From Diplolepis rosae (lineage: Eukaryota; Arthropoda; Insecta; Hymenoptera; Diplolepididae), in contig JAPYXD010000723.1 of the NCBI GenBank assembly GCA_030998225.1, forward strand, positions 25,437,501 through 25,501,500: a stretch of 64,000 nucleotides of DNA. The letters are read 5' to 3'. How positions within the stretch are numbered: position 1 is the first letter of the stretch; every line of letters starts with the position of its first letter. The notes under the pieces were generated by a model. That model was not told the DNA's origin. It worked only from the letters and a program-made list of their open reading frames with translations, and searched no databases. Below, piece by piece: positions 2,336 to 64,000 of this stretch. Made by a program: the position numbers and the translations under genes.

Positions 2336-2425
2336 TAGGACTTGTATCGACCCTTTGATGAATATTCGATATATGTGTAAATTGGCTTTAGGGTCCAGAA
2401 ATGATGAAAACTCAGTTCTTACATT

Positions 2426-2469
2426 CTTTCAAACGTTTCGACTCAGGTTGGAGTCCTCATCAGTGAGAA
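2426..2469 (-). ncRNA. Hammerhead ribozyme motif A (degraded)
   Basis: Read on the minus strand: CTGATGA, hairpin GACTC/GAGTC, GAAACGTT, then TGAAAG. TGAAAG can pair with upstream TTCTCA except for one C/A mismatch. The predicted cleavage triplet is GTT. One extra G sits at the base of stem II, as in all copies here. Core bases are intact but the weak stem I suggests low or no activity. Confidence 0.6.
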
Positions 2470-12998: not shown

Positions 12999-13578
12999 AG
13001 CATCACCTTCTTTTTGGATTGAAAACGACGTGGTTTTTTCGGACGCGGCTCATTGGGTGAACGCCATTCACTCGCTTGATGTCTGGAGTGCATGTCATAC
13101 TCATAAATCCACGTCTCGTCACCAGTAATTATCCGTTTGATGAGTCAACCTTGGAAAGCATGTCTTTTGCGAGATCAACGCGATCCCTTTTTTGCATGAA
13201 ATTCTGGTCTTTCGGCACCAGCTTTGCAGCGACACGTCTGAGGCCAAAATCATTGACCAAAATGTCTTGAGCGGATCCGTAAGCAACGTTCAACTCCTCT
13301 GCAATCTCTCTAATGGTCAATTTGCGGATTACGGTCATCCAGCCTTTGATTTTGTTGATGTTTTCATCAGTTTTTGCCGTCGACGGCCTGCCACTGCGTT
13401 CGTTATCCTTGACCGACTCACGACAACTTCTGAAGCGTTCGTGCCAGCGGAAAACGTTCGATCTCATTAGAGTATCGTTGCCGAAACACGTTTCCAACAT
13501 TTCCAAAGTCTACGCACCGTTAAATCCATTTTTAACACAAAATTTAATGCAAACTCGTTGCTGTAAAGTCGATGACAT
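12999..13578 (-). pseudogene. Mariner transposase, N-terminal fragment, broken
   Basis: The start ATG is at 13,576-13,578 (minus). After about 22 residues there is an in-frame TAG (13,510-13,512), then the paired helix-turn-helix DNA-binding region with the motifs VFRWHERFR, RSGRPSTA and LTIREIAEELN. Near 13,133 the frame shifts and ITGDETWIYEYD follows, carrying the first catalytic Asp. The gene is then cut off at the foldback ending at 12,998, so the remaining catalytic residues are missing. These features match mariner transposases of the ~345-residue class. The protein cannot be functional. Confidence 0.8.
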
Positions 13579-13621
13579 TTTTTTTTGTGAAAAATCGAAA
13601 CCACACACAAAGATAGATGTA

Positions 13622-15778
13622 CATTAGTGAGCAACATAAATGGTCCGAAAACTCTACTTGGTACCAGGATGCATCAAGAAGGGCTGGGATTCTTCTTTGC
13701 AGCCCTGATTTGAGCATCGGGGATTTCCTGGAGACCGACGCGGGGTTCGTTTGGGTGAAGGTGGCGGGGGTACGTGTGTACAGCTGCTACTTCTCTCCCA
13801 ACGATCCTTTCGAGGTCTTCGAGACCCAGATCCTCCTCCTTGAGGAAAGCCTTAGAGAGGCTACTGGGCGGTCCCTTATCACGGGTGACTTTAATAGTAA
13901 GTCGCCCGAGTGGGGCGAAGCCCGTCTGGACAGGAGGGGGATCTTGGTCGGCAAGATGGCCGCTAGGAATGACCTGATTGTATTGAATCAGGGCAGGGAT
14001 TTTACGTTCAGATAAGGAGCGGGGGGATCGATTATTGACCTCACGTTTGCCGCGCTCCGTCCTGCCTCAAGGATAGTCGACTGGTTCATCCGGGAACGGA
14101 GTCACCCAGTGAATACGGGAAGGGGCGACAAAGGAAGGAGCCCTTCCTGGAGCACAAGGCGAATCAACAAAGACAGGCTCAATAAACATCTTGAGAAAAC
14201 CAGGCTCATAGATGAGCTTGGTTGGGCTACGTCTGCTGGGTCGTTGGAGGACACCGTGCGGGCGGCGAGGCGGAAAGTGGTCGCACCATGTGACCACTCG
14301 ATGCCTCGACGGGGGCACGGGCTTACCGGGGACTCAATGTACTGGTGGAACGACCAGTTGTCTGTCCTGCGTCGGGAATGCCTCGCAGCGCAACGGAGAT
14401 TCACCCACTCAACGGGTGATTCTCTGCTGCACGAGGCATGGAAAAAATCAAAATCAGCTCTGAGGCAAGGCATAAAGAAAAGCCGACTTTAGTGCTGGAA
14501 AGACTTGATCGGTGAGTTCGAGAAGGACCCATGGGGTCTCTCCTTCAAAATAGTCACTAAGAGATTGGTGACTAGAAGAAAGACCCCGGGCCTGGATAAT
14601 CCCGATCGAGTCAAGTACGTCGTGCGAAGCTTGTTTCCGCATGTAGAGCCGTTCCAAAGAAGGGACCGAAACTCCTGCGTGGTCCGGCGTAAAGAACTCT
14701 TCACTTTTGAAGAACTAAAGACAGCGGGTGGAAGGCTCAAGGCAAACACAGCGCCAGGGATCTACGGGTTGCAGAACGAGATCCTCAAAGAGGTGCTCGG
14801 GGTATACCCGGAGATCCTCCTAGAAGTCTTTAACTCCTGTCTTCGGGTACGACGATTTTCTGCGCATGGACCTACCTGCTGGAACGAGCATCATCAGCTT
14901 CGTGGATGACGCAATTGTCGTGTGCGCTGCTAACAACGTCGGAATTCTGCAGCTGAGGATCAATGATAGTCAGTGGCGGGCAAAGCGTTGGTTAGATAGC
15001 AGAGGCCTGAAAATGGCCCCTGAGAAGACCGAGGCTTTGCTGGTCACAGACAGGAGATCCATCCAATATCCGAAGATCGCTCTCGGGGAACATGGAATGG
15101 AGTGGAAAAAGAGCATTAAGTACCTGGGAGTGCAGTTGGATTGAAGGCTTAGCTTCGGCGAACACCTGCAGATCGCGACTGCCAAAGCCATCCAATGTGG
15201 GGCCACCCTGACTCGGCTCATGCCCAACATTGGTGGACCCAGGGGAGCTAAGAGAAGGCTGGTGGCGAGCGTGGTAAATTCGAAGCTGCTTTATGCAGCT
15301 CCGATCTGGACAAGTGCCTTTAACAACCATGCTATCCTGAAAAAGCTGTTCTCGGCACAGAGAGGTGTGGTGATGAGAATTTTCTCCGCATACCGAACTG
15401 TGTCGACGAGTGCTGTGCTGGTCTTGGCGAGCGTCCCGCCAATTGATTTATTGGCGGAGGAAAGGAAGGAGACCTTCCAGCTCCGTAAGGAGCTCACCTG
15501 CTTAACAAACCCGCAGGTAATCGCTCGCGCGAAGGAGGCCATCCGCAAGGATGGAAGGCGCAGACTCGTCGAGAAATGGCAGATGAGATGGCATGGTGAC
15601 CAATCCGGGAGATGGACACACCGTCTAATCCTGGAGCTCACCACCTAGCTGGATATAAAGCACGGTCAAGTCAGCTTTTACCTGGTGCAAGCGCTTTCAG
15701 GTCATGGCTGCTTTAATGCGTACCTGAAGCGCTTCAGGAAAGGAGACGACGAGTCGTGTAGCTACTGCAGATCCCTTG
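13622..15778 (+). pseudogene. R1-clade non-LTR retrotransposon ORF2 remnant, copy 1
   Basis: ORF2 normally encodes an APE-type endonuclease followed by reverse transcriptase. The endonuclease part shows ITGDFNSKSPEWG (about 13,880-13,917), then an in-frame TAA at about 14,013. The SDH motif expected next is absent. The linker and RT finger region follow in the same frame with a stop near 14,490. After about 14,846 the frame shifts into the palm with SFVDDAIVV (the F/YxDD active site), so much of the RT between them is deleted. A TGA lies near 15,142. The C-terminal region runs to a TAG at 15,646, then the first cysteines of a CxxC zinc knuckle, where the copy ends. A 5'-truncated copy is usual for target-primed insertion. 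Confidence 0.85.
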
Positions 15779-16122: not shown

Positions 16123-19100
16123 TCAGTGCTGTGGCGCTAAGTTCTGTATAGGAACCTTGGTAATCTCTGCAGCACTCTGCACCTTCACTGGTAGAGGACA
16201 CAGTTTTTGGAGACACCTTTTGTAAGTACCCGACGTTATTTTCACAACTGCTACACGAGTAATTCCATCAGCTTCAGGGTGAGTTTCGATGACTCGGCCC
16301 AGATTCCATCTCAAGGGAGGGAGCTTCTCCTCTTTAAGTACAACCATGCTGCCGACAGAGATGCTGCTACTGGAACCAGATTTCCACTTGCTGCGGACGG
16401 TGAGCTCGTTCAAGTAATCTTTGTGCCACCTGGCCCAAAAGTGCTGTGTTCGCACCTGTACCTGTTGCCATACGGATAAACGATTGCATGGAAGTGATCT
16501 GAGATCTGCCTGTGGGAAGCTGGTCAATGGTTCACCAATCAGGAACTGGCCAGGAGTTAGGGAAAGAAAATCATTTGAATCGGTTGATAGAGGAGTTAAA
16601 TGGCGCGAATTTAGGATAGCTTCAATTTCGATTACATAGGTTTCAAGCTTTTCAAACGTGAGAAGAGTATTCCCAACCGTGCGCGCAACATGATATTTAA
16701 ACGATTTGACCGCAGCCTCCCAAAGCACGCCAAAATGTGGAGCTCCGGGTGGTATGAAACTCCATTTAATCCCTTTATTGGATAAAAACTTCAGGACCCT
16801 TTCATTGTGCTCATCAGCCGTCGGAAGAGCATAAAGTTCTTGGTTCTCGCGACTTGCTTCTACAAAGTTTGTGGCGTTATCCGACAATAAGGTGCTGAAT
16901 TTTCCGTGTCGAGAAAAGAATCATTTTAAGGCTGCGAGGAATTCTTCCGTAGTGAGATCACTTACTAATTCAATATGCACCGCCTTAGTACCAAGACAGA
17001 TAAATACCGAAACATAGCACTTAACGGAACCACGATTTCTGAAACGTTTTTCCTTTACAAAAAAAGGACCACAGTAGTCGATTCCTGTATTCACGAAGGC
17101 GCGAGACATCGCGAGGTTTTGCACGAAAGTATGGGACACATTGGTGAATGACATGGCGTGTGGTGTTACGGCCGTGGAGAGTTCAAAAGCACTATCGCAC
17201 TGAATACAAAGTCGCTTGCGTTCCTGCGTGCTTAAGTAGTATGTGTTCACTTCTTATAATAAGATTTGTGACGTGATGACTTCGCGGGAGAAGGATGGGG
17301 TGCTTCTGGTTAGAAGAAAATGCCGAGTGTATCAGTCTGCCACCCACCCTTATAATCTTATCATCAAGAAAGGGGTTTAACGCGATAAGTTTGCTCTTTC
17401 TGCAGACAGTTTCTCCGCGCTTTAGACAGTCGATTTCCTTCGAGAAATATTTTGCTTGCGTGAGTTTTATTACTAAATTCATAGCAAGGTTGAGTTCCTC
17501 AACGACCAGCGCGCTGTTGCGCTTACTCTTGCACCTTATATTATGAATAAAGCGAAGGCAATAGGCAAGAACTCGTTTCAATTTTGTAAGCGCAGAATAT
17601 CTTTCTAGTAAAGACCATTTTGAAATTGTTAAATTCATGGAGACTTGGGGAGTTTCTGGAGCACGCAGTTCAGGAATCTCCTTGAGTAGAAGAGTGGTCG
17701 AAGGCCACATATCCTCAGATTTACCGAGCCAAGCATGACCATGCGGCCAGCTAGTGGATTGCACAAATTCCTGCGGCATTTGACCACGTGCAACCGAGTC
17801 AGCGGGGTTTTCTAAGGTGGGTACGTGTCTCCAGCCGTCAACTTTAGTGAGAGATTGAAGTTTTGCCACTCTATTAGAAACAAACGTTTTCAATAAATCA
17901 GGTGGCGTCTTGATCCAATGTAGAGCGACTGTCAAATCAGACCAAAAGAAGATCTTGCTTAATTTGTTTTTAAGAGCCTGTTGAACGACAAATTGCAATT
18001 TTGCAAGCAGCAGCGCTGCACAATGTTCCAATCGTGGAAGGGACACTGATTTTACGGGCGCAACCCATGATTTTGAACACACGAGATTTGAAAAATATCG
18101 ACCTTCCTCGTTGGTAGAGCGTGTGTAAATGCAAGCTCCGTAAGCTCTTTCGCTTGCATCGCAGAAGCCATGAAGCTGAACCTCTGTCGAATTAGATGAC
18201 CAAAGCTAGCGACCAAAGCGAAGCTCGTTAAACAGTGGAAGCTGAGACATGTATTCAATCCAGGAAGTGTGAATGTCTATTGGAATGGATTCATCCCAAT
18301 TAACATTTGCTTTCGAAAGAAGCTGTATAATAATTTTAGCCTGAACAATTATGGGGCCAAGCAAACCGAGAGGATCAAAAAGCTTCGCTACCTTGATCCT
18401 TCCCTTGCTCAAAATTTTAATGAGGTTATCGCGGAGGGCGATAGCTTGTTCTCGCGTATCAGAATCAGTCAACAAATCGTCGACATAAAAGTCTTGCTTT
18501 AGAGAGGAGGCTGCTAGCGGTTGTGCAGTACTTTCATCAACCGCTAATTGATGCAGGGTCCGAATGCATAAAAAGGAGGCACATGCTATGCCATGAGTAA
18601 GTCTATTTAACTGGTAGATTTTTATCAATTCATTGCGGATGGCTCAGTAAGCACTTTTTTGATACAACGAGTCTTCAGGATGTACCAGCACTTGCCGGTA
18701 CATTTTTCCATATCGGCGGTCAACGCATATTTTCTTGATCGAAATCGAGTCAAATGCACGAAGAGTTCGTCTTGAATTACGGGACCGACCATAGAGGAAT
18801 CATTTAATGAGACACCGGTAGACGATTTTGCCGAGCCATCAAAGACTACTCTTATCTTAGTAGTAAGACTATCTTCTTTAACGACAGCATGATGAGGCAA
18901 ATAAAATCCTTCAGGTGTAGTTCCATCATTTTCAAGTTGAGACATATGACCCAACTGTTCGTACTCAGAGAGGAATTCATCATAAGGAGACTTTAATTCT
19001 GGCTGCCTATGAAATCGATTTTCTAAAAAATGAAGGCGTCGAAGAGCTACATTACGAGAGTGACCAATTTCGTTTCTCCGTCCATTGAAAAGAAGTCTCA

Positions 19101-19435
19101 CTATATATCGACCTTCAGAATTTCGAGTAGTATTTTTTACGAAGTGCTCCTCACAAGCGATTTGCTCAGAAGAAAGAACTTTGCAGGAGGGCACTTCTTC
19201 TAATTCCCAGAACTTAGAGAGATCAAAATCTAAAATCGGTTTATTACACATAAAATTGCATTGAAGAATTTTCTGATCAGAACGGGCCATTCCATATAAC
19301 CCACCCGCGACTATCCAGCCTAATTGAGTTTTCTGAAGCACTAGAGGATGATTTTTCAAGCGGATTTGGCCCACGCAAAGAAGCTCATAAAAAATACCCA
19401 CTCCAAGAATGCCGTCAATTTTACTCGGTATCGAA
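16123..19435 (-). pseudogene. BEL/Pao LTR retrotransposon pol remnant
   Basis: Domains on the minus strand run from the end of the protease/linker (IDGILGVGIFYELL, about 19,420) through the RT fingers (KIRVVFDGSA) to a frameshift and deletion near 18,640. The RT palm (FYVDDLLT, about 18,500) is followed by a stop near 18,207. RNase H comes next (GFCDASERAYGACIY, PRLEHCAALLLAKL, FWSDLTVALHW), then the Pao-type linker (WRHVPTLENPAD). The integrase has VNTGIDYCGPF with the first D, SDNATNF with the second D, and FGVLWEAAVKSF with the E, and is broken at about 16,890 and 17,250. Gag and most of the protease are missing. All three integrase acidic residues survive, but the reading frame is broken at least four times. 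Confidence 0.9.
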
Positions 19436-19440
19436 AATTG

Positions 19441-20930
19441 TTTTTCATTCGGATTAAAAAAACATTAATTTATAATTAACTTTATATTGATTTTTTCATA
19501 CCGTTGTCTTCGCTACTGCCTCTCGAATAAAAGTGGATGAGATTTATGTGAAAACGTTGAAAAACAAATTTTTTACTGCGAGTTGAGTATTGAAAAACAT
19601 GGATTTTACAATAACGAAATTTCGGGGTGTTTATTTTTTTTCGCAAAAATTATCATCTCGATGAAAGAAACGTAAATGTAGACTAATATTCATTTTTGAA
19701 GACCTATCGACCAGTATTTTATTACTGGAAATTTCGACTTTTGATTTTAAAGTGTGACGTCACCGCGCGGACAATACTTTTCCGGGTTTTTGAGCGTGCG
19801 ACCGGTTATTGCATGAACGGTCTCAATTCTCTTAAGTTTACTGAACTACTTTTTTCTATGTAGGTAATATAATATCTAATTGGTAGATTTGTAAATCTAA
19901 TACACATGTGTAAATCATGAAATGTATAGTTGCTGAACTAAAGCACGATACACTTAGCAGATGATAAATTTAATTGGTGCGGTGGAAAATTTATAAAATA
20001 AATGACTACTTGTATGATTTTGTCTTGGTTCAGATTACTTAAAAGTAACCCTGTTTAAACAGTACGAATATGCACATTAAATATAATTTTCTCTTAAATA
20101 TTAATAGATTTTTAGTAATTATTACAAGATTTGAAAAAATGACTGAACACTGAAAAAACCAGAATGCTTATGAGAACCGATTTTTGGGGTCCAATGAAAC
20201 TGTAACAGAAAAGAACTGGTCCGGTATGAAATGCAGACACGTTAAAAAAATCTTAAAAGGAACCAAATTTCGGTCCCCAAAGAACCAGTTTTGTTATTAT
20301 TGCTAGTTAACAACACACCTAAATTATCATAACGCATGTACAGAGATCCAATGACAAAAATATTTTATTGAAAAAAATATGGTTATGAAGATTCATTGTG
20401 ATTTTGCATGATATAAAAACTTTTTCAGACATGTAATTTTAAAGTATTATGTTTGATTCAAAGTATGAAGGGCCATTATTACTCTATAAATTCGCGCGCA
20501 ATGGCGCCAAAGATTGAAAGTCGATAAGTTTTCTTGGTACGATGTACTACTTTTTTACAAGCTAAAATACAAAAAATATTTACCATCAGAATGAACAAAA
20601 GTTGATATTGCACAAAGTAGTGAAACTACGAATAGATGATTCATTTTGAACGACAAGAGAAAACTTTCTGGGATAGATTGTGATTGCAATTACGGATATA
20701 TGTAGGCACCAATGAACATCTCATTATTCAAGGAAAAAATTGCGTCATACTGCAAAGTTTTTCAACGATGTGACAGCGAGTATAAATATGTTATTTATTT
20801 GACATTCGTTTACATTTATTGAACGATTCCTTCTTTTTTGTGAAAATAACAATTCTTAACTTTGACGAATATTGCTCGAATTAAAAATAATTCAAGTGTT
20901 TTGCAGCATTATTCGAAAATCATAAGAAGT
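19441..20930. other. AT-rich DNA with a fragment shared with the 59.8 kb foldback
   Basis: About 19,690-19,840 matches 59,790-59,925, including GTGTGACGTCAC, GACAATACTT and a CATGAACGGTCTC-like word. The rest is AT-rich with no gene seen. Confidence 0.5.
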
Positions 20931-21953: not shown

Positions 21954-22788
21954 CAAGGTGCGTTCCAAAATAAACGAGACTTTTGTCATAAAAATTTTTT
22001 GGTGGCGCCATCTGTGAATGATGTAGTGCGTTAGAAGGTTATATGCCTCCCTGACTTCCAGTGACAGTTTTATGACATTTGCTTCAGTGGAAGCGAAGTT
22101 ATTGCGTCTAAAGTGTCAGTGTGTTTGTGTCATCGGAACAAAAATGAGTTTCGAACAAAGAGCTAATATCAAATTTTGTTTTAAAATCGGTAAAACGTTT
22201 ACCGAAACATTTGAATTGATGAATAAAGTTTATGGCGATGATTGTCTATCTCATGCCAGAGTTCATGAGTGGTTTACACGTTTCAGAGATGGTCGTGAGG
22301 ACATAAATGACGATGAACATACGGGCCGCCCAAAATCAGTGATCACCGAAAACCCCATCGAAATTGTGCGTGAATTTATCAAAAATGAGCCGAAATCATC
22401 TTTGAAATTCATGGAATCGGAGTTGAATATCTCCAAAACATCGATTTATCGCATTTTAACCGATCATTTGGGCTTACGACCGCGAAGGAGGAAGCTGGCG
22501 CTTATTGCATGATAATACACCATCTCATCGATCCACTCTTGTGACTGATTTTTTGACTAGAAATCGCATTTTAACCATCAAACACTCACCGTATTCGCCT
22601 GATATGGCTCCCTGTGACTTCTACCTATTCGGAAAATTGTTTACTCTTTCGAAAAGCTTTTGGGTCGCGCAAAACAGTGTATCGAGGCCGGAGGGGACTA
22701 TTTTGAATAAATAAACTCGAATTTATCAGAACAAAGCTCCTGTCATTTCTATTTTAGCTCAGTCTCGTTTATTTTGGAACGCACCTTG
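21954..22788 (+). mobile_element. Internally deleted mariner element with intact ends
   Basis: TA (21,952-21,953 and 22,789-22,790) flanks 27-bp inverted repeats beginning CAAGGTGCGTTCC and AAAATAAACGAGAC. At 835 bp it is shorter than the usual ~1.3 kb mariner. Intact ends mean it could still be moved by a transposase supplied elsewhere. Confidence 0.85.
22144..22714 (+). pseudogene. Mariner transposase with central deletion
   Basis: The ATG at 22,144 (MSFEQRANIKFC) begins a mariner DNA-binding domain with VHEWFTRFRDGRED, HTGRPKS and LNISKTSIYRIL. At about 22,490 the sequence jumps, with a frame change, to LHDNTPSHRS (second catalytic D) and then YSPDMAPCDFYLFGKL (third catalytic D). The segment with the first catalytic Asp is gone. 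A further break near 22,660 replaces the C-terminus. An upstream ATG at 22,072 in the same frame was not chosen, because the family begins at the later Met. The product is inactive. Confidence 0.8.
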
Positions 22789-24730: not shown

Positions 24731-24861
24731 TAAAGGAAGAAACTTAAAAAATTGCACGTGTGACGGATAAACATTGTGGTAACAATCGATATAACGTGTG
24801 TGTATGTGTGGAAGCTGTAAAAACGGTCTAAATAGCTGAGTTCACAAAAACTGTACAGAAA

Positions 24862-25166
24862 ACAATTTTCAATCTACTCTGAGAAAGATTTTATATACAG
24901 TAAAATTGTAGAAGTTAAAAAGAATTATTACAGAATAAAAAAGTGTAGAAAACTGTGATCTCATCACAATAAAATATCACCAAACAGAAACTGACCTGTT
25001 ATTTTGTTAAGCAGCCGGAAAAAAAATAACAGGTCAGTTTTTGTCTGGTGATAATTTATTGTGATGAGATCACAGTTTTTTACACTTTTTTATTCTGTAA
25101 TAATTCTTCTTAACTTCTACAATTTTACTGTATATAAAACCTTTCTCAGAGTAGATTGCAAATTGC
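24862..25166. repeat. Palindrome around the tail of hammerhead element B
   Basis: Sequence from about 24,868 (the GAAAGATTTTATATACAG region) to the tail box is inverted through 25,160. The centre is near 25,017 in the AGCAGCCGGAAAAAAA spacer. It contains TGTGATCTCATCACAAT on the left arm and its complement on the right. Confidence 0.7.
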
Positions 25167-25198
25167 TTTCTTTTTTAAATTTAATTATCAAAGAAATT

Positions 25199-26722
25199 AT
25201 ATATGGGTCATTTCATGGGAAATTTACAGTCAAAATTTTTTTTTTCAACGAAACATTTTTTTTTGCCTTTTTACTTCGAAAATAATCGACACGTATTTTT
25301 TTTTTCAATATGATACTTGTAAATTTCGAGATATAATTTTTTGAAGTTTGGCACTCGGGAAAAATTTTTTTTTTTTCAACAGCTCACTGTAAAAGCAGTT
25401 TTGAATATAAAATGTAACCCTTGCACTTGAAATGCGTGAAAGAGTACAAGTTTTCAGAAAAGTTATAGCACACATTTCGTTGTTTTTTTGTAATAACAAT
25501 ATAGTACATTTTTATAAACAATTGAATTTTTTTAAAATTTGGAACTCATTTTTTTCCGATTTTTTTGTTTCTAAATCTTTGTTGAAGTTTTTTTAATATG
25601 CAGGCAAAATTTTTGAATGGAAAAATGAAAACTGTGGGTGTAATTAATTTATAAAGTCTGTCCCGCGCGTTGCAACGAGCGAGCTCGCACGCTGCAACTA
25701 CGCTTAAGCTTGATTAGGCATGCTCGGACTCGAAGCACGTGTGGCAGTGAATTCTAGTGACCGCTGTTTTAGTTTTCTGTGAATGTTCCTCAAGTGTTCA
25801 CCTATCTCAAATCAATACAGAAATACCAAGCTCTCGATTTAAACATGTCTGATGCAATACGTTTAATAAAAAAAATCATAGTGGAAAAAAGCAAAAAAAA
25901 TTTGCGTCTTAAGTGTATCATTTAGAGTAATTTCATCGTAAAATTTCACTCATCAATTCATCATTATAACTAATGATTCGTTTTGAAATAATCTACGCAC
26001 AAGTTTGACGCGACGCAAATTTTTTTTTTGCTTTTTTCCACTATGATTTTTTTTATTAAACGGATTGCAGCAGACATGTTTAAATCGAGAGCTTGGCATT
26101 TCTGTATTAATTTGAGATAGGTGAACACTTGAGGAAAATTCACAGAAAACTAAAACAGCGGTCACTGCATTCACTGCCACACGTGATTCGAGTCCGAGCA
26201 TGCCTAATCAAGCTTAAGCCTAGTTGCAGCGTGCGAGCTCGCTCGTTGCAACGCGCGGGACAGATTTTATAAATTAATTACAACTACAGTTTTCATTTTT
26301 CCATTCCGAAATTTTGCCTGCATATTGAACAAACTGCAACAAAGATTTAGAATCAAAAAAATCGGAAAAAAATTAGTTCCAAATTAAAAAAAAATTCAAT
26401 TGTTTATAAAAATGTACTATATTGTTATTACAAAAAAAACAACGAAATGTGTGCTATAACTTTTTTGAAAGCTTGTACTCTTTCGCGCATTTCAAGTGCA
26501 AGGGCTACATTTTATATTCAAAACTGCTTTTACAGTGAGCTGTTGGAAAAAAAAAAATTTTTCCCGAGTGCCAAACTTCAAAAAATTATATCTCGAAATT
26601 TACAAGTATCATATTGAAAAAAAAAATACGTGTCGATTATTTTCGAAGTAAAAAGGCAAAAAAAAATGTTTCGTTGAAAAAAAAAATTTTGACTGTAAAT
26701 CTCCCATGAAATGACCCATATA
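25199..26722. repeat. 1.5-kb palindromic element
   Basis: TATATGGGTCATTTCATGGG at 25,199 matches its inverted copy ending at about 26,722. The arms (about 700 bp each) stay alignable to the centre near 25,960 and include CGTTGCAACGAGCGAGCTCG and GCATGCTCGGACTCGAA. No domain is recognised in either arm. A non-autonomous foldback element or an inverted duplication would both explain it. Confidence 0.75.
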
Positions 26723-26767
26723 CAAAAAATTGCATAGGAAAATATGAATTTTTAAACTATATACATG

Positions 26768-28622: not shown

Positions 28623-29482
28623 AAAAACGTTTACAATAGTATTATTCAAAGTATTTCCCATCTGAAGCTATGACTTTTTCCCATCTTTCTGGAAATTTGT
28701 GGATTCCATTCCAAAAGAACTGCGCCGGCTTGGCGTCCAGGAATAAATCAAGTCAATTTTTGATAACCTGTTCTGATGTGAACCGTATTCCAGTGAGGGC
28801 GTTCTGCATCGACCGGAACAAATGGTAGTCAGAAGGGTCAAGGTCTGGGCTATAAGGCGGGTGAGGTAAAACTTTCCATCCACTGTTTTCCAAATAATTC
28901 TTAACCGGAATAGCAACATGGGGCCGAGCGTTGTCATGATGGAAAATTATTGCCTCGTGTCTGGTCGCATATTCCGGGCATTTTTTGGCTATTGCTCTCT
29001 TCAAACGGATTAATTGTGTTCGGTAGCGTTCTCCATTGATGTTTTCACCCGGTTTTAGCAGCTCATAATACAGCACACCCTTCTGATCCCACCAAATACA
29101 GAGCATTACCTTCGCGCCATGGATATTCGGCTTTGCCGTTGATTTGTCTGGTTGGCCGGGTTTCACATATCATTTTTTGCGCTTGGGGTTGTCGTAATGG
29201 ATCCATTTTTCATCACCAGTAACAATCCGATGCAAAAATGACTTCTTTTTGTGGCGTTCCAGCAGCATTTCAGGCATTCAAAACCGCCTTTCAACGTCTC
29301 TCGGCTTGAGTTTATGTGGAACCCAATTTCCTTACTTTTAAATGTATCCGGCTGCTTTTAAACGTTTTGAAATGGCTGCTTGAGTGACTCCCAAAAATTC
29401 TGCGAGCTCTTATTGTGTTTGGCAACATTCTTCATCGAATAATGCTTCCAGTTTTTCATCTTCAAACTTTTTCAGTAGTCAT
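28623..29482 (-). pseudogene. Mariner transposase, 5'-truncated with several stops
   Basis: A single minus-strand frame shows QTQ*ELAEFLGVTQAAISK (second helix-turn-helix), NWVPHKL (the mariner WVPHEL motif), VTGDEKWIHYDN (first D), IFHHDNARPHVA (second D) and PYSPDLDPSDYHLFRSM (third D). The C-terminus is RWEKVIASDGKYFE. All three catalytic Asp residues of the DD34D mariner triad are kept. At least five in-frame stops and the lost N-terminus make it dead. It abuts the gypsy-related repeat at 29,483. Confidence 0.85.
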
Positions 29483-37635: not shown

Positions 37636-38625
37636 AGGACTTATATCGACCCGTAGTATTAATATTTGAATATTTTGGTGTACTTAGTTGACTTTAGGGT
37701 CCAGAAAAATGTAAACTCAAGGTTTCATATTTTCAAACGTTTCGACTCTGATTGGAGTCCTCATCAGTGAGAATTTATTTCTATAACAAATACAAATAAG
37801 AAGATTTGAAAATTTTGGAAAAGTAACAATAAGGAACGACGGGCGAATTGCACATATGGAAACATACATTTTTTTGTGAAAAAAACTAGATTCGCGAAAT
37901 TGAAGCTATTAAACTATTCAAAACTATTAAAAATTATACAGAGACTATAAAAAACTACACAAAAACTGTTCAGATACTGTTCAAACTATTAAAAAGTATT
38001 TGAGGAATGTACAAAAAACTACACGAAACATTCAAACTGTTGGAAAACCGTCTATCTTGGAAAAAACGTGCAGTTATAAAACTATTGAAATTATTTAAAA
38101 CATTTACGAACTGTACAGAATCTATACCAACTATTCGGAGACTATTCAAGCTATAAAAACTATTCAAACTACTTAAGGATTATACAGAAATTACACAAAA
38201 AACGTTCAAAGCTGTTTAAAAATTATATAGAAAATACAAAAAATCTGTTCCAAATTGTTTTAAAGCTGTTTTAAACCATCTATCTGAAAGAAGTGTGCAG
38301 TTATAGCTATTAAAACCTGTTAAAACTATTTAGGGATTGTACAGAACTACATAAAACTGTTAAAGCTGTTTGGAAACTGTCTAACTTGGAAAAATTGTAC
38401 AGTTGTAAAACTATTGAAGAACTATTCAACATTTCAGAGTTGTACAGGAAGTATACAAGACTATTCAAAGCTGTTAAAAAACTATCTATCTTGAACAAAA
38501 GGTGTACAGTTATAAAAGTTAAGAAAAATGTTTAAAAAAGTATCTGAAGATCTGTGATCTCATCAAAGTTGACAACTACTAAATCAAACTAACCTGTTAT
38601 GATGTTAGGAAGCCGGAAAGGAGCT
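37636..38625. mobile_element. Hammerhead-bearing repeat, copy C
   Basis: The order is GGACTTATATCGACCC, then a GACTTTAGGGTCC box, a minus-strand ribozyme motif, a body of degenerate AAACTATT/AACTGTT-rich tandem repeats, and the tail box ACCTGTTATGATGTTAGG near 38,593. No RT or endonuclease is seen. Confidence 0.6.
37730..37773 (-). ncRNA. Hammerhead ribozyme motif C
   Basis: Minus strand: CTGATGA, stem GACTC/GAGTC with loop CAATCA, GAAACGTT, then TGAAAA. TGAAAA pairs with upstream TTCTCA apart from one C/A mismatch. The core is intact and the cleavage triplet is GTT. Confidence 0.6.
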
Positions 38626-44275: not shown

Positions 44276-45770
44276 TCACCAGGGTGACGAATGACTCGAT
44301 AAGCATCCATATCTGTTCAGACTGGAGCATGAGAGAGACCATCGTGTCAGGAGTGAGTTGTGCGCCCACTGCCCGACCGACAGCCTCCCTTTCCGCGCCC
44401 TGGCACAGACAAAGAGTGTGTGCTCTGCATTTTCCACAAGAGAACCGCAGTAGCGACACGACTCATCGTCTCTTCTCTTGAAGCGCTTCAGGTACGCATT
44501 AAAGCAACCATGGCCCGAAAGCGCTTGCGCCAGGGAAAAGCCGACTTTACCGTGCTTTCTATCCAGCCAGGTGGCGAGCTCCTGGATCAAACGGTGTGTC
44601 CATCTCCCGGATTGGTCACCATGCCATCTCATCTGCCATTTCTCGACGAGTCTGCGCCTTTCATCCTTGCAGATGGCCTCTTTCGCGCGAGCGATTTCCT
44701 GCAGGTTTGTTAAGCAGGTGAGCTCCTTACGCAGCTGAAAGGTCTCTTTCCTTTCCTCCGATAATAAATCTATTGATGGGACGCTCGCCAGGACCAGCAC
44801 AGCGCTCGTCGACGCAGTTCGGTATGCTGAGACAATTCTCATCACCACACCTCTCTGTGCCGAGAACAGCTTCTTCAGGATAGCATGGTTGTTAAGGGCA
44901 CTTGTCCAGATCGGAGCTGCCTAAAGCAGCTTCGAATTTACCACGTTCGCCACCAGCCTTCTCTTACCTTCCTTGGGTCCACCAATGTTGGACATGAGCC
45001 GAGTCAGGGCAGCCCCACATTGGATGGCTTTGGCAATCGCGATCTGCAGGTGTTCGCCAGCACAGTGTCCTCCAACGACCCTGCAGACCTTGCCCAACCA
45101 AGCTCATCTATGAGCTTGGTTTCTTCAAGATGTTCGCGAAGCTTGACTTTGCTGAGTCGTTTTGTGTTCCAGGAGGGGCTCCTTACTTTGCCGACCCTTC
45201 CCGTATTCACTGGGTGACTCCGTTCCTGGATGCTAAACTCAATGCACTGGTGGTCACTCAAGGTTATTACCTCGAGGATCCCCGCTCCTCGTCTGAACGT
45301 AAAATCCCTGCCCCGATTCAATACAATCAGGTCATTCCTGGCGACCATCTCACTGACCAAGATTGCCCTCCTGTCTAGACCCACTCAAGCGTCTTACTAT
45401 TAAAGTCGCCCGCAATGAGGGACCGCCCACTAGACTCTCTGAGGCTTTCTTCAAGGAGGAAGATCTGGGTCTCAAAGATCTCAAAAGGATCGTTGGGAGA
45501 GAAGTAGCAGCTGTACACACGTACCTCCGCCTCCTCCACCCAAACGAGCCCCTGCGTCGTTCTCCAGGAAATCCGCGTTGCTCCAATCAGGGCTGCAGTC
45601 AAGGATGCCAGCCCTCCTTGATGCATCCTGGTACCAAGTAGAGTTTGCGGACCATTTGTGTTGCTCACTAATGATCGGCCCCCCTCTCCCTGGCAGTCTA
45701 CATCAGAAGGTTCTGGGCTTCCTTCCCTCTCCCGAGGTTGAGCTGTAGGAACTTCACTTTCCACCCCTCA
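44276..45770 (-). pseudogene. R1 ORF2 remnant (endonuclease and C-terminus)
   Basis: It starts about 45,764. The endonuclease shows VRVYSCYFSPNDPFE, IAGDFNSKTLEW, and, after a stop and frame change near 45,380, RDFTFRRGAG and TLSDHQCIEF (the SDH motif of the APE fold). At about 45,070 the linker jumps to GEHLQIAIAKAIQCG, deleting the whole RT finger-palm region. After another frame change the C-terminus (from 44,848) reaches CRYCGSLVENAEHTLFVC, the CCHC knuckle typical of R1-type ORF2. About 95% of the shared residues match copy 1 by eye in the C-terminal region. Confidence 0.85.
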
Positions 45771-55934: not shown

Positions 55935-56365
55935 GAGATATCGAGTTAAAACTTTAAGTAATTAGATGAAAAGCACTAAAGAAAGTTCATCTGCTCCTAA
56001 ATATTTATATTTGAGGGTCGAAGTCCAAAAATAAAAAAATAGAAAATACAGGGAAATAGGTCTTTCAAAATAAGATTGAGGTTGCACAAACGATTTTTTT
56101 CTAAAATCATTGTCTTTCGATAAAAAAAAATGAAAGCTAAGTTTTTTTTCAGTAAGTAAACCGTGATTTTTAAAACTTAAATTGCCCTAACTCAGTAAAT
56201 TATCAACAGATTTGGAAAAATAAAAATGAGTTTCACTTGGAAGACTTTACCGATGGCTACTCTCTAAATTTGAATCAGTCAAAATATACTGATTATCGAA
56301 GATATATGTTGATGTTGGTAATTGGCTTTAGGGTCCAAGGTTGATAAAAACTCAGAGTTTTACAT

Positions 56366-56407
56366 AATCAGACGTTTCGGCTCTGATCGGAGCCCTCATC
56401 AGTGATT
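56366..56407 (-). ncRNA. Hammerhead ribozyme motif D1
   Basis: Minus strand: AATCA, CTGATGA, stem GGCTC/GAGCC with loop CGATCA, GAAACGTC, then TGATT, which pairs fully with AATCA. Predicted cleavage follows GTC. Stem III is only the self-complementary ACGT, as in minimal type I hammerheads that act as dimers. Confidence 0.75.
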
Positions 56408-56699
56408 TATTCAAATCTAAAAATACAGAAAAAGGTTTTGCTAACATAGGATATTTTGTATAAAAAATTTTTTGTAAAAATTTAACAAGTAATTATCATT
56501 ATGTTTTTACATGTAGGTAAATAAATTTTGATATTACTTTGAGGTAAATATTTCATTCACATAACCTAACAAACTAGATACCAGAAAGCATTTTTTGGAA
56601 GGTTGGAATTAAGTGTCTAAATATAAAAAATATTTTTAATTGACATTCGTGCATGGAATTGTAGATTGAAATTTTTGTGGTGTAGTTTTTAATACAATA

Positions 56700-56732
56700 T
56701 ATATACATGCATACATAAACAACCACACACAC

Positions 56733-56768
<36 letters not shown>

Positions 56769-56785
56769 TTGAGTGTATATCTTGA

Positions 56786-56864
<79 letters not shown>

Positions 56865-56990
56865 CATATACATCACGCATGCAATATATACACATATATA
56901 TGCACAATATACAATGTACATTTACTATACAATATGCATACGTACATACACACATACATACATACATATGACATGCATATAACATTATAT
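56700..56990. repeat. (CA)n, (TA)n and TATACA microsatellite block
   Basis: Simple repeats within the left arm. The right-arm counterpart is 57,795-58,110. Short frames here are artefacts of the repeat. Confidence 0.9.
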
Positions 56991-58017
56991 ATACCACACA
57001 TATAAAATATTTTCAAATTCTTTAAATATTATTTCTTTTGGTATGAAGTGCAATCTGTAAATTTTATTTAATTTAACATTTTTTTCTTTGGCATATGTTC
57101 CTTGGAAATTTGTCCGCTGTGACACTTTTTTAGCAAGAAGAACTGAAAAATTGATAGTTTTTTTGCAATGACTTAGAACATAAAGAGTCCGTAGAGTTAT
57201 ACAAAAGGCTTTTCTCAATCGTGGGTATATGAGGCTGCTTATTCAGAATGTACACAAAAAGGCCATAAAATTTCATATAATATTGCACATAAAGTTTTCT
57301 TTGGTTTGAGTCTAGATCTAAAATTACCTATGTAAATTTATAATTTTTTACAATATTTTTTTCTTACATCTACTGGTCAATCAAAAATTTCGGCAATTTA
57401 CTCCCTAAAAACTGGATTTTACACAGTGCTATTCTCATTGCTTTACACCAAAGAAATATTTACATAGGTAATTTTAGATCTAGACTCAAACCAAAGAAAA
57501 CTTTATGTGCAATATTATATGAAATTTTATGGCCTTTTTGTGTACATTCTGAATAAGCAGCCTCATATACCCACGATTGAGAAAAGCCTTTTGTATAACT
57601 CTACGGACTCTTTATGTTCTAAGTCATTGCAAAAAAACTATCAATTTTTCAGTTCTTCTTGCTAAAAAAGTGTCACAGCGGACAAATTTCCAAGGAACAT
57701 ATGCCAAAGAAAAAAATGTTAAATTAAATAAAATTTACAGATTGCACTTCATACCAAAAGAAATAATATTTAAAGAATTTGAAAATATTTTATATGTGTG
57801 GTATATATAATGTTATATGCATGTCATATGTATGTATGTATGTGTGTATGTACGTATGCATATTGTATAGTAAATGTACATTGTATATTGTGCATATATA
57901 TGTGTATATATTGCATGCGTGATGTATATGTCTGTGTATGTGTGTGTGTATGTATGTGTATGTGTATGTATGTGTATGTGTATATATATATGTATATATA
58001 TGCTCAAGATATACACT

Positions 58018-58084
<67 letters not shown>

Positions 58085-58398
58085 GTGTGTGTGGTTGTTT
58101 ATGTATGCATGTATATATATTGTATTAAAAACTACACCACAAAAATTTCAATCTACAATTCCATGCACGAATGTCAATTAAAAATATTTTTTATATTTAG
58201 ACACTTAATTCCAACCTTCCAAAAAATGCTTTCTGGTATCTAGTTTGTTAGGTTATGTGAATGAAATATTTACCTCAAAGTAATATCAAAATTTATTTAC
58301 CTACATGTAAAAACATAATGATAATTACTTGTTAAAAATTTTTTATACAAAATATCCTATGTTAGCAAAACCTTTTTCTGTATTTTTAGATTTGAATA

Positions 58399-58440
58399 AA
58401 TCACTGATGAGGGCTCCGATCAGAGCCGAAACGTCTGATT
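58399..58440 (+). ncRNA. Hammerhead ribozyme motif D2
   Basis: This is the plus-strand counterpart of D1 with identical core and stems: AATCA/TGATT stem I, GGCTC/GAGCC stem II, GAAACGTC. Predicted cleavage is between 58,435 and 58,436. Confidence 0.75.
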
Positions 58441-60037
58441 ATGTAAAACTCTGAGTTTTTATCAACCTTGGACCCTAAAGCCAATTACCAACATCAACAT
58501 ATATCTTCAATTATTAATTAAGGGTCAATGTAAGTCCAGAATATGAATACTGATTATCAGTGCAATTTGACTGATTCAAATAGCTTAAAAGAGGTTACTG
58601 TAAATCAGTCAAATTTTGAGTAATTTGACTAATTAAAGTAATTTAATTTAATTTGACAGTGAAAAATATTTTTTCCACTGATGAATCAGTGAAAAGGCAA
58701 ATCACTGATTCAGTCAGTGAAAATTTGACTGATTCAGATTTAGAGAGTACGAGATAAAGAAACCCATTAAAAACTAATTACAATTATATTTAATTATATA
58801 TTTCTCTGTATAATAATTTCAACAACTAAAATGTTACAAATTAATTATCACTTCACTTGCACTGTTTTACAAAAGTAACAACAAATCTTTGGGAAATTAT
58901 TATACAATCGTATAATACAATAGTTGTATTATACGATATATATACTATTATGTCTCTGCTTTAATTAGGTTTTTCCTTGAATTTAATTCCAACAGTAAAT
59001 GCACGTTTTCATTGTTCATTTTCGATTTTATATTTAATAAATTCAAGAACAATTTTTAATAATAACATCCAAACTTCAAGGATTTTTTATTCAGCGCTGC
59101 GTCAAACACGAACACGTGCACGAGATCGCACGCCCGCACGCCGAGCGTTTTTTTTTAAATAACATTTTCATCAATTAAAAATCACTCGATTGCAATAATT
59201 TTTGCCACAAAGTTCCTTCGAACCTTAACGAAGAACATTGCCGTCTCACTTTTTCCATGCCTTAAACTTCCCCGGAATCTTTTGATCGCCGAATGTCGAA
59301 AAACACTGTTTTTCCTTTTAATTAAAATATTGTTTTAATTTGTTTTAATATTTATTTTTCTAAATCTTTATCTCGTACTCTCTAAATCTGAATCAGTAAA
59401 ATTTTCACTGACTAAATCAGTGATTTGTCTTTTCACTGATTCATCAGTGGAAAAATTATTTTTCACTGTCAAATCAGTCAATTTTCACTGAAATAATCAG
59501 TGAAATTTGACTGATTTACAGTAACCTCTTTTTAGCTATTTGAATCAGTCAAATTGCACTGATAATCAGTATATTTTGACTGATTCAAATTTAGAGAGTA
59601 GCCATCGGTAAAGTCTTCCAAGTGAAACTCATTTTTATTTTTCCAAATCTGTTGATAATTTACTGAGTTAGGGCAATTTAAGTTTTAAAAATCACGCTTT
59701 TCTTACTGAAAAAAAACTTAGCTTTCATTTTTTTTTCTCGAAAGACAATGATTTTAGAAAAAAATCGTTCGTGGAACCTCAATCTTATTTTGAAAGACCT
59801 ATCTCCCTGTATTTTTATTTTTTTATTTCCGGACTCCGAACTTTCACGTGTGACGTCACAGCGTGGACAATACTTATCGGCGTTTTCGAGTGCACGACCC
59901 ATTCATGCATTCGGACCCTCAATTATGAAAAAAAAATGTCCAACGAACTTTATTTTTTTAATTTTAAAAATATTTGTCCATATAAACGTTTTTTACAGCA
60001 TTTTACTCAATTCCTCAAAGTTTTAACTCGATATCGT

Positions 60038-60451
60038 GAACAATGTTCAAAAAAGCGAAGGGCAAAAAAAAGTGTCAGTAAGGTAGGGATCGGATAAGTA
60101 ATACATGGCCTCAAATGCGTTTACTCCATCCAATCAAATTGGGAACAATAATTGATACTTAGCTTGTCCTGATTGGCATTAATTCAAAACGATTCATATT
60201 TAAATTATTATCAGTCATTATAAATTGTTTCCAATATTTTATTTCTAGGAGGAATAACTCGCAACTGAGAACGATTCAAATCAATTAACAAAGGCGTTCG
60301 CTGACCATTCGCTGACCTCGTAATAATATTAAAAAAAGAGGAGCATGAAAAACACTTAAATTGTTGCTATTATGATTCTGCGGTAAATTTTGAGTTCGAA
60401 GATATCGAAGTTGTTACAATAATTATATTTTATCGTTGAAAAACTAAAGAA
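60038..60451. other. Non-coding spacer
   Basis: Nothing recognised. Confidence 0.4.
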
Positions 60452-60540
60452 ACATAATACCTGACATTGAAGGCAGTGCAGTGGTTCACTATTTGCGGTA
60501 TCAGTCCACCGTCAGGGTTGACCACACCGAAAAAAATCTC
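60452..60540. repeat. Fragment of the 36.8 kb foldback family
   Basis: GAAGGCAGTGCAGTGGTTCA and the preceding ACATAATACCTGACATT match 36,974-37,016. The full element is not present. Confidence 0.6.
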
Positions 60541-60640
60541 ATCCGAATTTCGCACACTATCTGAATTTACTATAAAAACGCAACACATTTGTTGTACTTT
60601 TGTTGCTCAAATTTATAAGCGAATTTCCCGTACTCCCGTA

Positions 60641-60728
60641 CCCGTACTCTCTTCATGTGGCCAAGTTGGTTTGGCACGTATATGCATATACGTGCCAAAC
60701 CAACTTGGCCATATCAAGAGAGTACGGG
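60641..60728. repeat. 88-bp near-perfect palindrome
   Basis: CCCGTACTCTCTTCATGTGG pairs with CCATATCAAGAGAGTACGGG around the centre TATGCATA at 60,681-60,688. There is almost no loop, so it could extrude as a cruciform. Confidence 0.85.
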
Positions 60729-60950
60729 TCTGATTTTATTCAAAAATGCATAATCTTTTATATCAATATTGCAGAAAAAAGTCGCTTACGAAAACTATAA
60801 CGGCACTTTATGCGAAATTCGAAAGAGATTTTTACATTCTCATCATGGATGAGAAGGTATTGGTTTTATGTGAAAAATGACTTTCGAAATTTTCATCAAA
60901 TCTTTACGTTTTGAGACCCCCTGAGTCCGAAAAAACGGTTTTTACGAAAG

Positions 60951-60981
<31 letters not shown>

Positions 60982-61230
60982 AGGTCGTGTGCGGCATAAC
61001 TCTCGATAGAATTATCAGATTGAATTGAGCTTTGATACACTTTATCGGAGCCGAAAAAGTAAGGACAAGTACGTTAACCAGCCACATCCAATCAAAATTG
61101 AGGGGTTGAGCACTACTTTTGTGTTTTTGAAAATAATTAAAATGGTAGTTTGTATTGACCCTTGATTTAATTTATAAAACTTGGTACGTTTGCATTGGCT
61201 TTAGGGTCCATAAATGAAGAAGTCTATTTA

Positions 61231-61270
61231 ATCAGACGTTTCGGCTCTGATCGGAGCCCTCATCAGTGAT
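61231..61270 (-). ncRNA. Hammerhead ribozyme motif E1
   Basis: Minus strand: ATCA, CTGATGA, stem GGCTC/GAGCC, GAAACGTC, TGAT. Stem I is 4 bp. The core is intact with a GTC cleavage triplet. Confidence 0.7.
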
Positions 61271-62020
61271 ATTTATTAAATCTAAAAATACAAAAAAGAT
61301 GATGTCGCTAATTTCCCACTTTTTAACGGAATAACTAGAGTACTTAGAATATGATATAAAAACGAGTACTTGGTATGTTAATCTGTAATTGAAAATGGAA
61401 AGCTTGGATATACGACTACTCTTTGGACTATTTTTCCCTGGGACTATTACTATATAAGCTATAAGGTTATTCTGACCATTTGCAGAACAAACTAAATCTA
61501 TTAATACTTCCTAAAATGTGATACTTGATATCACGATTACTAAAATTGCATTTTTGTTATTTTTTAAATATAAATGTAGTATTTTTCAAAACATCTCAGA
61601 ATAAATCTGAATGCAGTATTAAACAACATTCAATTTTTTTTATTTATTGCTTAACATACTCAAATAATATTGAGTAAAAGTACATGTCTAGATATTATAA
61701 TAATTTATGTTCCTGTAATGCCTTGCTTGCCAATTCAATGTTAAATGGATTGTCCGTGAAGCTGATATAAAAAAATCGTTTCTTGAAAAATACACGCCTT
61801 CCTCCATTCGTGAAAATCACCATAAACGTTTCGAATTTCTTTACTAGGTATAGGACAATAGTCTTCTCAAGGAGCAAAAAACCTCTCAGGATTTCTTACA
61901 TAAAAAAATTTTCGGTCAGCAAAGCCATATGTCTTGAGTCGGTTTTTAAAACAGTTCAGATCATTCTGTGAGAGACTCCGGTTACAAAGTCTTCACGAAA
62001 AGTTTAAAAATGTAAACCTT

Positions 62021-62272
62021 GTTCGCGTTCTGCCATTGATGAGCAATTTGGCATCCTCTTTTAATAAAAATTTTTTTAAATTGCGGTCGGTTCGTGTGGA
62101 AATTTTTCTTTTTTTATGTATCCCGCTTTATTTGTTATCCGGTTTTGTTCGCGTTCTGCCATTGATAAGCAATTGGGCATCCTTTTTTAATAAGAAATTT
62201 TTTTTAATTGCGGTCGGTTCGTGTGGAAATTTTTTTATGTTTCCCGGTTTAATTGTTATCCGTTTTTTTTTA
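62021..62272. repeat. 126-bp tandem duplication
   Basis: GTTCGCGTTCTGCCATTGAT at 62,021 recurs at 62,147. Both units continue with AATTGCGGTCGGTTCGTGTG and a TTATCCGG/TTATCCG end. A 42-codon frame is preserved but is not recognised as coding. Confidence 0.8.
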
Positions 62273-62442
62273 TTCACAGTGAACTCTAAATATTTTTTCG
62301 AATCGTGATGCTGCATACTGGACTACTTCATTTTGAATTGCAAGCTTTGAGATAAGTTTTTGAATTCTATGATAATCCTTAATTTCATTATCTCCTATAT
62401 TCTAATGTTTTACAGAAATTTTGAATTAATCCTTGAATTTAT

Positions 62443-62483
62443 GGCACTGAAGAGGGCCCCCATATGTGGCCGAAACGTTTGCC
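62443..62483 (+). ncRNA. Hammerhead ribozyme motif E2 (divergent)
   Basis: GGCA, CTGAAGA, stem GGCC/GGCC with loop CCCATATGT, GAAACGTT, then TGCC, which pairs with GGCA. The core differs from the others only at the non-conserved seventh position (A for T). Both stems have changed sequence while staying paired. Confidence 0.7.
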
Positions 62484-64000
62484 TTGCTTTCTTTTTGAGT
62501 ATTTTTATATGTAATAGTGAAAATTTTATTCGACGGAAATAAAAAGAATCTGACCCTATGCCAAAATAACGAGAAATGAACAAAAAATTCTATGAATTAT
62601 GGGTCAATATAATAGCAGACATGTTATCAAACATGTCACTTTAAAATTATATAATAAGGTTTGAACTCAAATAAATTGGTGCGAAGCTGAATGTGAACAG
62701 CCTTGTCTAGACAATTGAGGCCATTTTTTTGAATATTTTTTTCCTGAAACTATTTGAACCTATTTGTAGACTATTTTCCTGAAACTATTTCAACCTATTT
62801 ATAGACTATTTATAAAAATGTTCACATTTTGACTGTCTTTTCTATGCTGGTGTCTACAATTGAATTTTTTGAGACTATTAAGGCCTGGTTCGAACTATTT
62901 AACTTGGACTATTTTAAACTATTTCAAAACTATTTTTTAAAAAAGTAAATATTCACATTCTTTTTTAAGAAGGTCTTATCCATACCGGTGTCTATAATAA
63001 TTCTTAGGTTACAGATTGAAAGGAAGAGATTGATGTAGAGCATTAATGATATTTTGAACTATTTGGAACTCTTTAAAAAAATAATAATTATTTATATTTG
63101 TGAATATCTAATACATTTTTTTGAAAAAATAAAAAATTTCAATACTGGTTTTAGATAGTGCTCATAAATCTCTAAAAATTATCCTGATAACATTTTTTGA
63201 TTAAATCAAAATTAGAAATGTTACAGCATATTCAAATTCGAAAAAAGTCAATATCAAAATTCCATTTTCCAGTTAAATTATACGAGATACGAAAAAACGT
63301 TATGATACAATATTATTGAATAAATAAAGACCTACAAATTTGAATTGTAACATTTTTTCATAAGATGCATATTTTTCTTTTTAATTAAAAAAAACACTAT
63401 TGAAAATCCAAAATTCAATTTTTTAACAATAATATGTAAAATAAGAAAAAAACGTAAGCATACAAAGTTGTTAGTTTCAAAAATATCTACAAGTTTTGTC
63501 TCACACAGTTTCTGATAAAACATATATTTTTCGTTTCAATTCCAAAAAATACGATTAAAATTCAAAAATTCCATTTTTTAGACAAAATATGTGAGATACA
63601 AAAAAAACTTTGAGATGAAAAATTGTTTGGCTAAATAAGGTCTACACATTCTTATCGAGAAATTTCTCGACAGGATGTATATTTTAATTTTTTGATTTTT
63701 AATATTGAAAAAATTCGATTTTTTTCACCAAAATATATGAGATACGAAATAAGCGTTGTTCTGCAAAATCGTTTACTTAAATAAAGTCTACGATTGTTTT
63801 TCCTTTTTGAGATATTTGGAAGAAAATAAATTTATCAATAATTATGTAATTTATTAAAAAGTTACAAAAATGCATACAGAAAATCGAGCGCGAGTGTCAT
63901 GATGAGAATGTGTTCCTTAAGGCCAATAGAGCCTTAAGTAAATTGAATTTCCTGTTTCACTTAAACTGAAAAAGAAACTTAGTGAATTTGAGAAAATGAC

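Follow-up and report, generated by a model that had tools for sequence, protein, structure and literature searches.

A palindrome flanked on both sides by a 12-bp repeat lies at 56286-58558 of a 64-kb window of the Diplolepis rosae genome (assembly GCA_030998225.1, contig JAPYXD010000723.1, positions 25,437,501 to 25,501,500 of the forward strand; "the window" denotes this whole stretch). We found that it is very probably a single, recent head-to-head insertion of an autonomous, endonuclease-bearing Penelope-like retrotransposon, both copies of which are 5′-truncated, and that it requires no new class of element. The integration of Penelope elements, which are relatives of telomerase, is poorly understood. 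As the family is young and near-identical among the copies compared, and as many insertions keep both ends and both duplications, it provides a clean record of where copying started at each DNA end. What may be new is the count of tails per insertion: exactly one in 16 of 17 head-to-head loci whose two ends were both seen.

The window copy is bounded by the 12-bp target site duplication (TSD) ATACTGATTATC at 56286-56297 and 58547-58558 (both on the + strand), as an earlier note on this DNA had described. These are the only + strand occurrences in the window, and a third one (− strand, 59561-59572) is part of the empty site discussed below. Adjacent to the left TSD lies an inverted, 5′-truncated pseudo-long terminal repeat (pLTR) of a Penelope-like element (56298-57337, −), which begins at a proximal reverse transcription (RT) start site and is tail-less. 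It overlaps by 3 nt, at the head-to-head junction 57335-57337, with the right copy, a pLTR of the same element (57338-58508, +) that is about 122 nt longer on its 5′ side. The right copy continues into a 38-nt tail (58509-58546, +), situated between the proximal and a distal RT start site, the end of which carries the start of the element's open reading frame (ORF). The window copy thus consists of two truncated pLTRs and contains no ORF. Alignment of the arms (56298-57337, −, and 57458-58508, +) showed no substitution outside poly-T, AT and CA tracts, and a comparison of two arm pieces yielded 690 matches, no mismatch and one gap; within the microsatellite tracts, the arms differ in length and partly in pattern. 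The near-identical inverted arms of the earlier note were therefore confirmed outside the microsatellites, but the symmetry was not, as the 38-nt tail stands between the right arm and the right duplication and has no counterpart on the left. The centre (57338-57457) is unpaired; in relatives it is contiguous with the right arm, so it belongs to the right copy.

An intact pre-insertion (empty) site was found about 1 kb from the insertion (59503-59632, −). It harbors a single ATACTGATTATC (59561-59572) and is identical at 129 of 130 positions to the flanks of the insertion joined with one TSD copy. The joined flanks were matched across the joint at all 40 scored genome candidates, one of which was 59503-59632, demonstrating that the insertion resides in one arm of a host terminal-inverted-repeat (TIR) element whose partner arm represents the empty site. 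The arms of this host element (56018-58760 and 59365-59839) are about 480 bp long and 93% alike once the insertion is removed. Flanking duplications and an intact empty site together corroborate a retrotransposition event with target duplication. The host TIR arm itself matched at least 40 scored genome places, and a short hairpin is present at the target site.

To whom the ends belong became apparent from relatives in the same genome. The host genome (757.7 Mb, 428 contigs) was searched with the window palindrome and the best 40 candidates were scored; these comprised 135 matches. In the relatives, the apparent spacer runs on without interruption into the right arm, and the resulting unit mostly extends upstream into sequence that the window copy lacks, and an ORF begins directly beyond the tail, the tail end coinciding with the start codon region. 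Because of this continuous unit with ORFs beyond the tail, we assign the right-hand unit as the pLTR of an autonomous-type Penelope-like element with predicted reverse transcriptase and GIY-YIG-like ORFs. At locus L009, an ORF of 712 codons (3469-5604, −) matched Pfam RVT_1 with an E value of 6.9e-10, above the curated cut-off, and a second, overlapping downstream ORF of 208 codons matched GIY-YIG (PF01541) with 9.3e-4. At locus L018 (2840-4840, −), both matches (RVT_1, 6.5e-10; GIY-YIG, 2.9e-3) fell into one frame of 667 codons, with the N-terminal part in another frame. The Penelope-like origin proposed earlier is thus supported by same-genome relatives that join these ends to reverse transcriptase ORFs, and L009 and L018 represent the predicted reverse transcriptase/GIY-YIG relative sharing the same ends, firmly so for RVT_1 and with GIY-YIG matches under the gathering score. 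A protein search revealed 1578 homologues among 7990 scored; the closest (P0001) was 48% identical over 98% of the query and carried a precomputed PF01541 annotation. Organism names were attached to 12 of the 120 listed homologues, which we take to be 11 Hymenoptera and one fly. A PDB sequence search with the L018 ORF returned no relative at E 0.001. Partial tandem pLTR copies, in which the unit end is joined to a body start, were seen at L009, L014, L015, L016, L018 and L023+L069.

The asymmetry of the window copy recurred throughout its family (family D). The sample consisted of the region at every family D place among the scored candidates, plus the far ends for some, and comprised 31 loci including the window copy. 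Both ends were seen at 17 head-to-head loci, while five loci showed a single orientation (L020, L024, m23, m25, m26). One tailed and one tail-less end were present in 16 of the 17 head-to-head loci, the window copy included. Tailed ends close at ...CAGAATATGA and tail-less ends at ...ATATCTTC, with AA most often next; among the ends keeping the exact 22-nt motif in the DNA examined, 27 were tail-less and 17 tailed. The flanks share 12-15 bp in 15 of the 17 loci, all 15 being one-tailed, and mismatched flanks from the first 12 loci shared a stretch of at least 11 in none of 132 comparisons. Nine loci were chosen with one end known and the other fetched afterwards. Five of these were head-to-head (m33, m36, m21, m22, m29), and all five exhibited the expected other end, and hence one tail, with a TSD in four; no inverted partner was found at m23, m25 and m26, and m35 was undecided.

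A second head-to-head copy in the window (2320-4069, −), a member of a diverged related family (A), displayed the same arrangement, with the TSD TATTTTTAATTATA at 2320-2333 and 4056-4069, a tailed end at 2334 and a tail-less inverted end at 3971-4055. We examined 14 loci of family A, namely the window copy and 13 of the other 39 scored hits; the tailed ends were selected, because the query included the tail. An inverted partner was observed at 11 of the 14 loci and was tail-less in all 11 cases, while three loci had no partner within about 3 kb. At least 12 bases were shared by the flanks in eight of the 11 pairs (L060 in an AT repeat), the remaining three sharing nine, eight and six; mismatched flank pairs shared at least 11 bases in one of 110 comparisons. 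Of the 40 scored hits, 19 (the window copy among them) match without a difference along the full 157 nt, and this family is accordingly very young.

Both arms of one insertion derive from the same source element or from very close ones. Over 12 head-to-head loci (L012 and m21 included), the arms showed a total of six differences at the variable stretch, while random pairing of arms gave a mean of 33.5 differences and six or fewer in none of 20000 trials; a common RNA molecule is not proven by this result. At 27 tail-less ends, the flank matched the template beyond the proximal site by 4.4 nt on average versus 0.6 at control offsets, and by 2.8 versus 0.6 nt beyond the common AA (24 ends), although the control is uncorrected for AT, and the AT content of the target flanks (90% in the first 12 nt versus 65% for the window) may explain part of the excess. 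The excess at the proximal start site is suggestive of base pairing between primer and RNA there. At the distal site, no clear excess of template matches was observed beyond the common AT (997/20000, 14 ends). Since both outer ends are RT start sites abutting a TSD copy, both TSD copies would lie on primer strands, and the break would therefore have had 3′ overhangs of 12-15 nt.

These observations can be arranged in the following model. The element's protein would cut the two strands at staggered positions and leave 3′ overhangs of 12-15 nt. Both DNA 3′ ends would then act as primers for the copying of element RNA, with the tail arising at the end that uses the distal start and the tail-less arm at the end that uses the proximal start. 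The two cDNAs would then converge, stop early and become joined end to end. More tentatively, a single RNA molecule may template both cDNAs, which would explain why exactly one end is tailed. Priming from both target DNA ends at a pair of neighbouring start sites, possibly on the same RNA, is favoured by the evidence over snap-back of a single cDNA. The complete proposal, a coordinated two-ended integration in which the 3′ ends of one break use two mutually exclusive adjacent starts on one RNA, hence one tail and one template, is put forward tentatively, with a little less than an even chance of being correct. If true, the tail would reflect an inherent pair of start sites, with one site serving each DNA end, and not a random option.

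In snap-back self-priming, the cDNA 3′ end would fold back and copy itself, so that the palindrome would arise from a single priming event. The available text of PMC3846280 infers self-priming from junction palindromes, and in 2013 an antisense-template version was put forward for Penelope copies in head-to-head arrangement. In the window copy, the 120-nt loop and the junction overlap of 3 nt would be compatible with such a process. However, a snap-back copy should end at the beginning of its template, whereas in 11 of the 16 one-tail loci it is the shorter arm that bears the outer tail and the longer one that has none on its outside, a count that we use solely against snap-back. In seven of these 11 loci, the longer arm has no tail anywhere, and the shorter arm can thus not be a copy of it; the argument is weaker for L009, L14_15, L16_17 and L018, where an internal tail lies within the tandem that forms the longer arm. 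In the remaining five loci (the window copy, L013, L031, m33 and m22), the tailed arm is the longer one; copying would need to halt at the proximal start site every time, and this precise stop is all that opposes snap-back there. The content of the window copy alone would allow it. Taken together, the one-tail pattern largely excludes snap-back, which we consider highly improbable.

Two separate or nested Penelope insertions at one spot, with arms later sharpened by gene conversion, are less probable still. Palindrome arms can be homogenised, and the two-tailed L012, which lacks a TSD, might have arisen in this way, but the window copy has one outer TSD, no inner TSD was seen, the empty site is intact, and the same architecture recurs in 15 TSD-bearing loci.

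The earlier note had proposed a non-autonomous palindromic element that mobilised as one 2.25-kb unit, which would then stem from a palindromic source, and a clean TSD with both ends intact would be expected of such a unit as well. It had also suggested a search for further copies with distinct target duplications. The 40 scored genome candidates contained no second copy of the whole palindrome, a negative that includes no dedicated junction search result. The window palindrome itself scored 4100 bits and the best other place among these candidates 1997, and every other listed genome match crossed the palindrome centre by at most about 20 nt. Moreover, the junctions of the 16 other head-to-head loci examined all differ from that of the window copy: by BLAST coordinates, the 17 junctions comprise 11 with an overlap of 0-4 nt, five with a gap of 1-20 nt and one (L16_17) with about 1 kb. 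As the unit is the pLTR of an autonomous element, no second copy was found among the scored candidates and the junctions differ, we regard the window copy as a single insertion, and propagation as a palindromic unit as more doubtful than either of the foregoing alternatives. Finally, long palindromes are a known class of artefact, but an assembly or amplification artefact mirroring one arm is hardly credible here, as the arms differ in microsatellites and length, the tail is one-sided, and TSD and empty site agree.

Several observations weigh against the two-ended reading or against parts of the assignment. The one-tail pattern is not universal, since L012 is tailed at both ends; this locus also lacks a TSD, and its arms mismatch at two positions. 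Locus m21 has one tail, yet its flanks share just 8 nt, and at L16_17 (C176) about 1 kb of unrelated DNA separates the head-to-head copies. For nine of the 31 family D loci, an end was unfetched or not found (L027, L028, L030, L032, L035, L037-L040). Five family D insertions lack an inverted partner and are tail-less, with shared flanks only at L020 (17 bp) and m23 (10 bp), while L045 of family A, likewise without inverted partner, is tailed, has a 13-bp TSD and is 5′-truncated at its far end. Within the stretch compared, arms differ at three sites in m36 and at one site each in L010, L018 and m21, and the microsatellite differences between the window arms fit a single RNA only with slippage of the reverse transcriptase or later change. 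The GIY-YIG matches score 19.9 and 18.3, under the Pfam gathering score of 22.6. In vitro, the purified PAc protein of Anolis carolinensis (Poseidon/Penelope) showed no start-site difference between strands according to the accessible part of PMC11167929, whereas here each TSD-bearing pair examined has one of each.

Two of these loci deserve separate mention. L012 (C373:1155000-1162000) is the sole two-tailed head-to-head locus seen, and both of its arms carry the same extra microsatellite stretch. A rule that one-sided insertions are always tail-less had been considered and was dropped in view of the tailed L045.

Each arm of the window copy carries CTGATGAGGGCTCCGATCAGAGCCGAAACGTC facing outward. 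A minimal type I hammerhead is predicted in each arm: that on the left spans 56366-56407 (−), has its core at 56374-56402 and should be cut between 56371 and 56370, and that on the right spans 58399-58440 (+), has its core at 58404-58432 and should be cut after 58435. The motif CTGANGA...GAAAC[GT]T occurs seven times in the window, whereas 100 first-order Markov simulations gave a mean of 0.07 and a maximum of one. Helix III is missing; covariation is seen in stems I and II, in a register that leaves a single G unpaired beside the core, after CUGANGA. When the six distinct window cores were aligned, 90% of the stem I/II cells were paired and five of ten pairs were changed on both sides. Percentage paired, changed pairs and covariation score were matched by none of 500 shuffles, and the number of pair types by 86 of 500; the shuffles ignore the relatedness of the six cores, and the stem I register was set after a first pair count. 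Core and covarying stems thus agree with the earlier description of one outward minimal type I hammerhead per arm, for which cleavage is predicted on sequence grounds. The idea that the pair might act as a ribozyme dimer does not fit, as the two hammerheads lie on opposite strands and any one transcript contains one sense and one antisense copy. Rfam yielded no hammerhead in the whole window at gathering thresholds and none at E values up to 5 in 56200-62700, where the 60 matches were microRNA and snoRNA models. The hammerhead patterns had no match in the viral_contigs or genome_contigs collections, nor did the palindrome in the phage collection. About 75-110 nt separate the hammerheads from the RT start sites downstream, and since both arms read through the predicted cleavage site, the template would have been uncleaved there. 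Some copies are predicted to form a GACCC/GGGTC stem around the start sites; as this stem is invariant in the alignment, covariation is uninformative about it.

The window contains further Penelope-type sequences. A different end at 62447-62620 (+) comprises a hammerhead (CTGAAGAGGGCC...GGCCGAAACGTT) and a tail-like TATTGACCC motif at its 3′ side, and faces copy E at 61146-61290, with no common TSD by eye. At their 5′ side, copies A and C each have a stretch of about 88 nt with 75% similarity to copy B (3749-3832, 24927-25014 and 38533-38619), and the bodies between resemble differing degenerate tandem repeats; these copies may be non-autonomous relatives of Penelope whose bodies are exchangeable. 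The 5′ end of copy B is self-inverted (24857-25171; 92% over 316 nt), with a head-to-head junction near 25014. Another large palindrome (25422-26725, about 92% alike over 1315 nt) had no link to the hammerhead ends in the self-comparison. ORF fragments at 7852-8412, 13129-13509, 13617-15648, 16123-19464, 22027-22512, 28753-29169 and 44276-45767 presumably represent mariner transposase-, BEL/Pao polyprotein- and non-LTR retrotransposon-like sequences.

Minimal hammerheads are known from Penelope elements (available portions of PMC7761336 and PMC7229834), including forms without helix III (PMC7761336). According to the accessible text of PMC7229834, metazoan non-LTR retrozymes are made up of units of about 170-400 nt that are repeated directly in tandem and carry canonical type I hammerheads. 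The window feature resembles them in having type I hammerheads in non-coding repeats, but we do not place it among the retrozymes, as its units are inverted, lack helix III and are part of a coding element. Another related system is PAc, whose protein, as far as the available part of PMC11167929 goes, cleaves and extends both DNA strands and begins reverse transcription at a pair of neighbouring sites, which bound the tail. The systems share paired RT start sites around the tail, a hammerhead upstream of the starts and AT-rich targets; they differ in that the PAc ORF begins within the hammerhead and reverse transcription starts 111-118 nt into the ORF, whereas here the ORF starts at the tail end.

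A close match is found in the endonuclease-bearing Penelope elements of Adineta vaga (Pen2a_Av and others), for which the available text of PMC3846280 reports inverted pLTRs, short TSDs, 5′ truncation, tandem copies and, on one inverted pLTR, a tail of about 31 bp that may be absent, with the head-to-head arrangement being most frequent. Inverted pLTRs, optional tail, TSDs, 5′ truncation and tandems were all found here as well (tail 38 nt, TSD 12 bp), and a palindrome with its own duplication is therefore not unusual, contrary to the earlier view, but already known for Penelope elements. The accessible part of PMC8969392 likewise mentions TSDs and inverted pLTRs, one of which may be tailed. 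In the literature searched, as far as its available text extends (Craig 2021, Lunse 2017 and Cervera 2014 were outside its scope), we found no tally of tails for individual insertions. In PMC3846280, inverted repeats are explained by self-priming, and its available text gives no tail count, whereas the one-tail count obtained here opposes self-priming. The window feature is thus of a known kind, and the one-tail pattern is the part worth following: it represents a sharp mechanistic constraint that speaks against the published self-priming mechanism for head-to-head copies.

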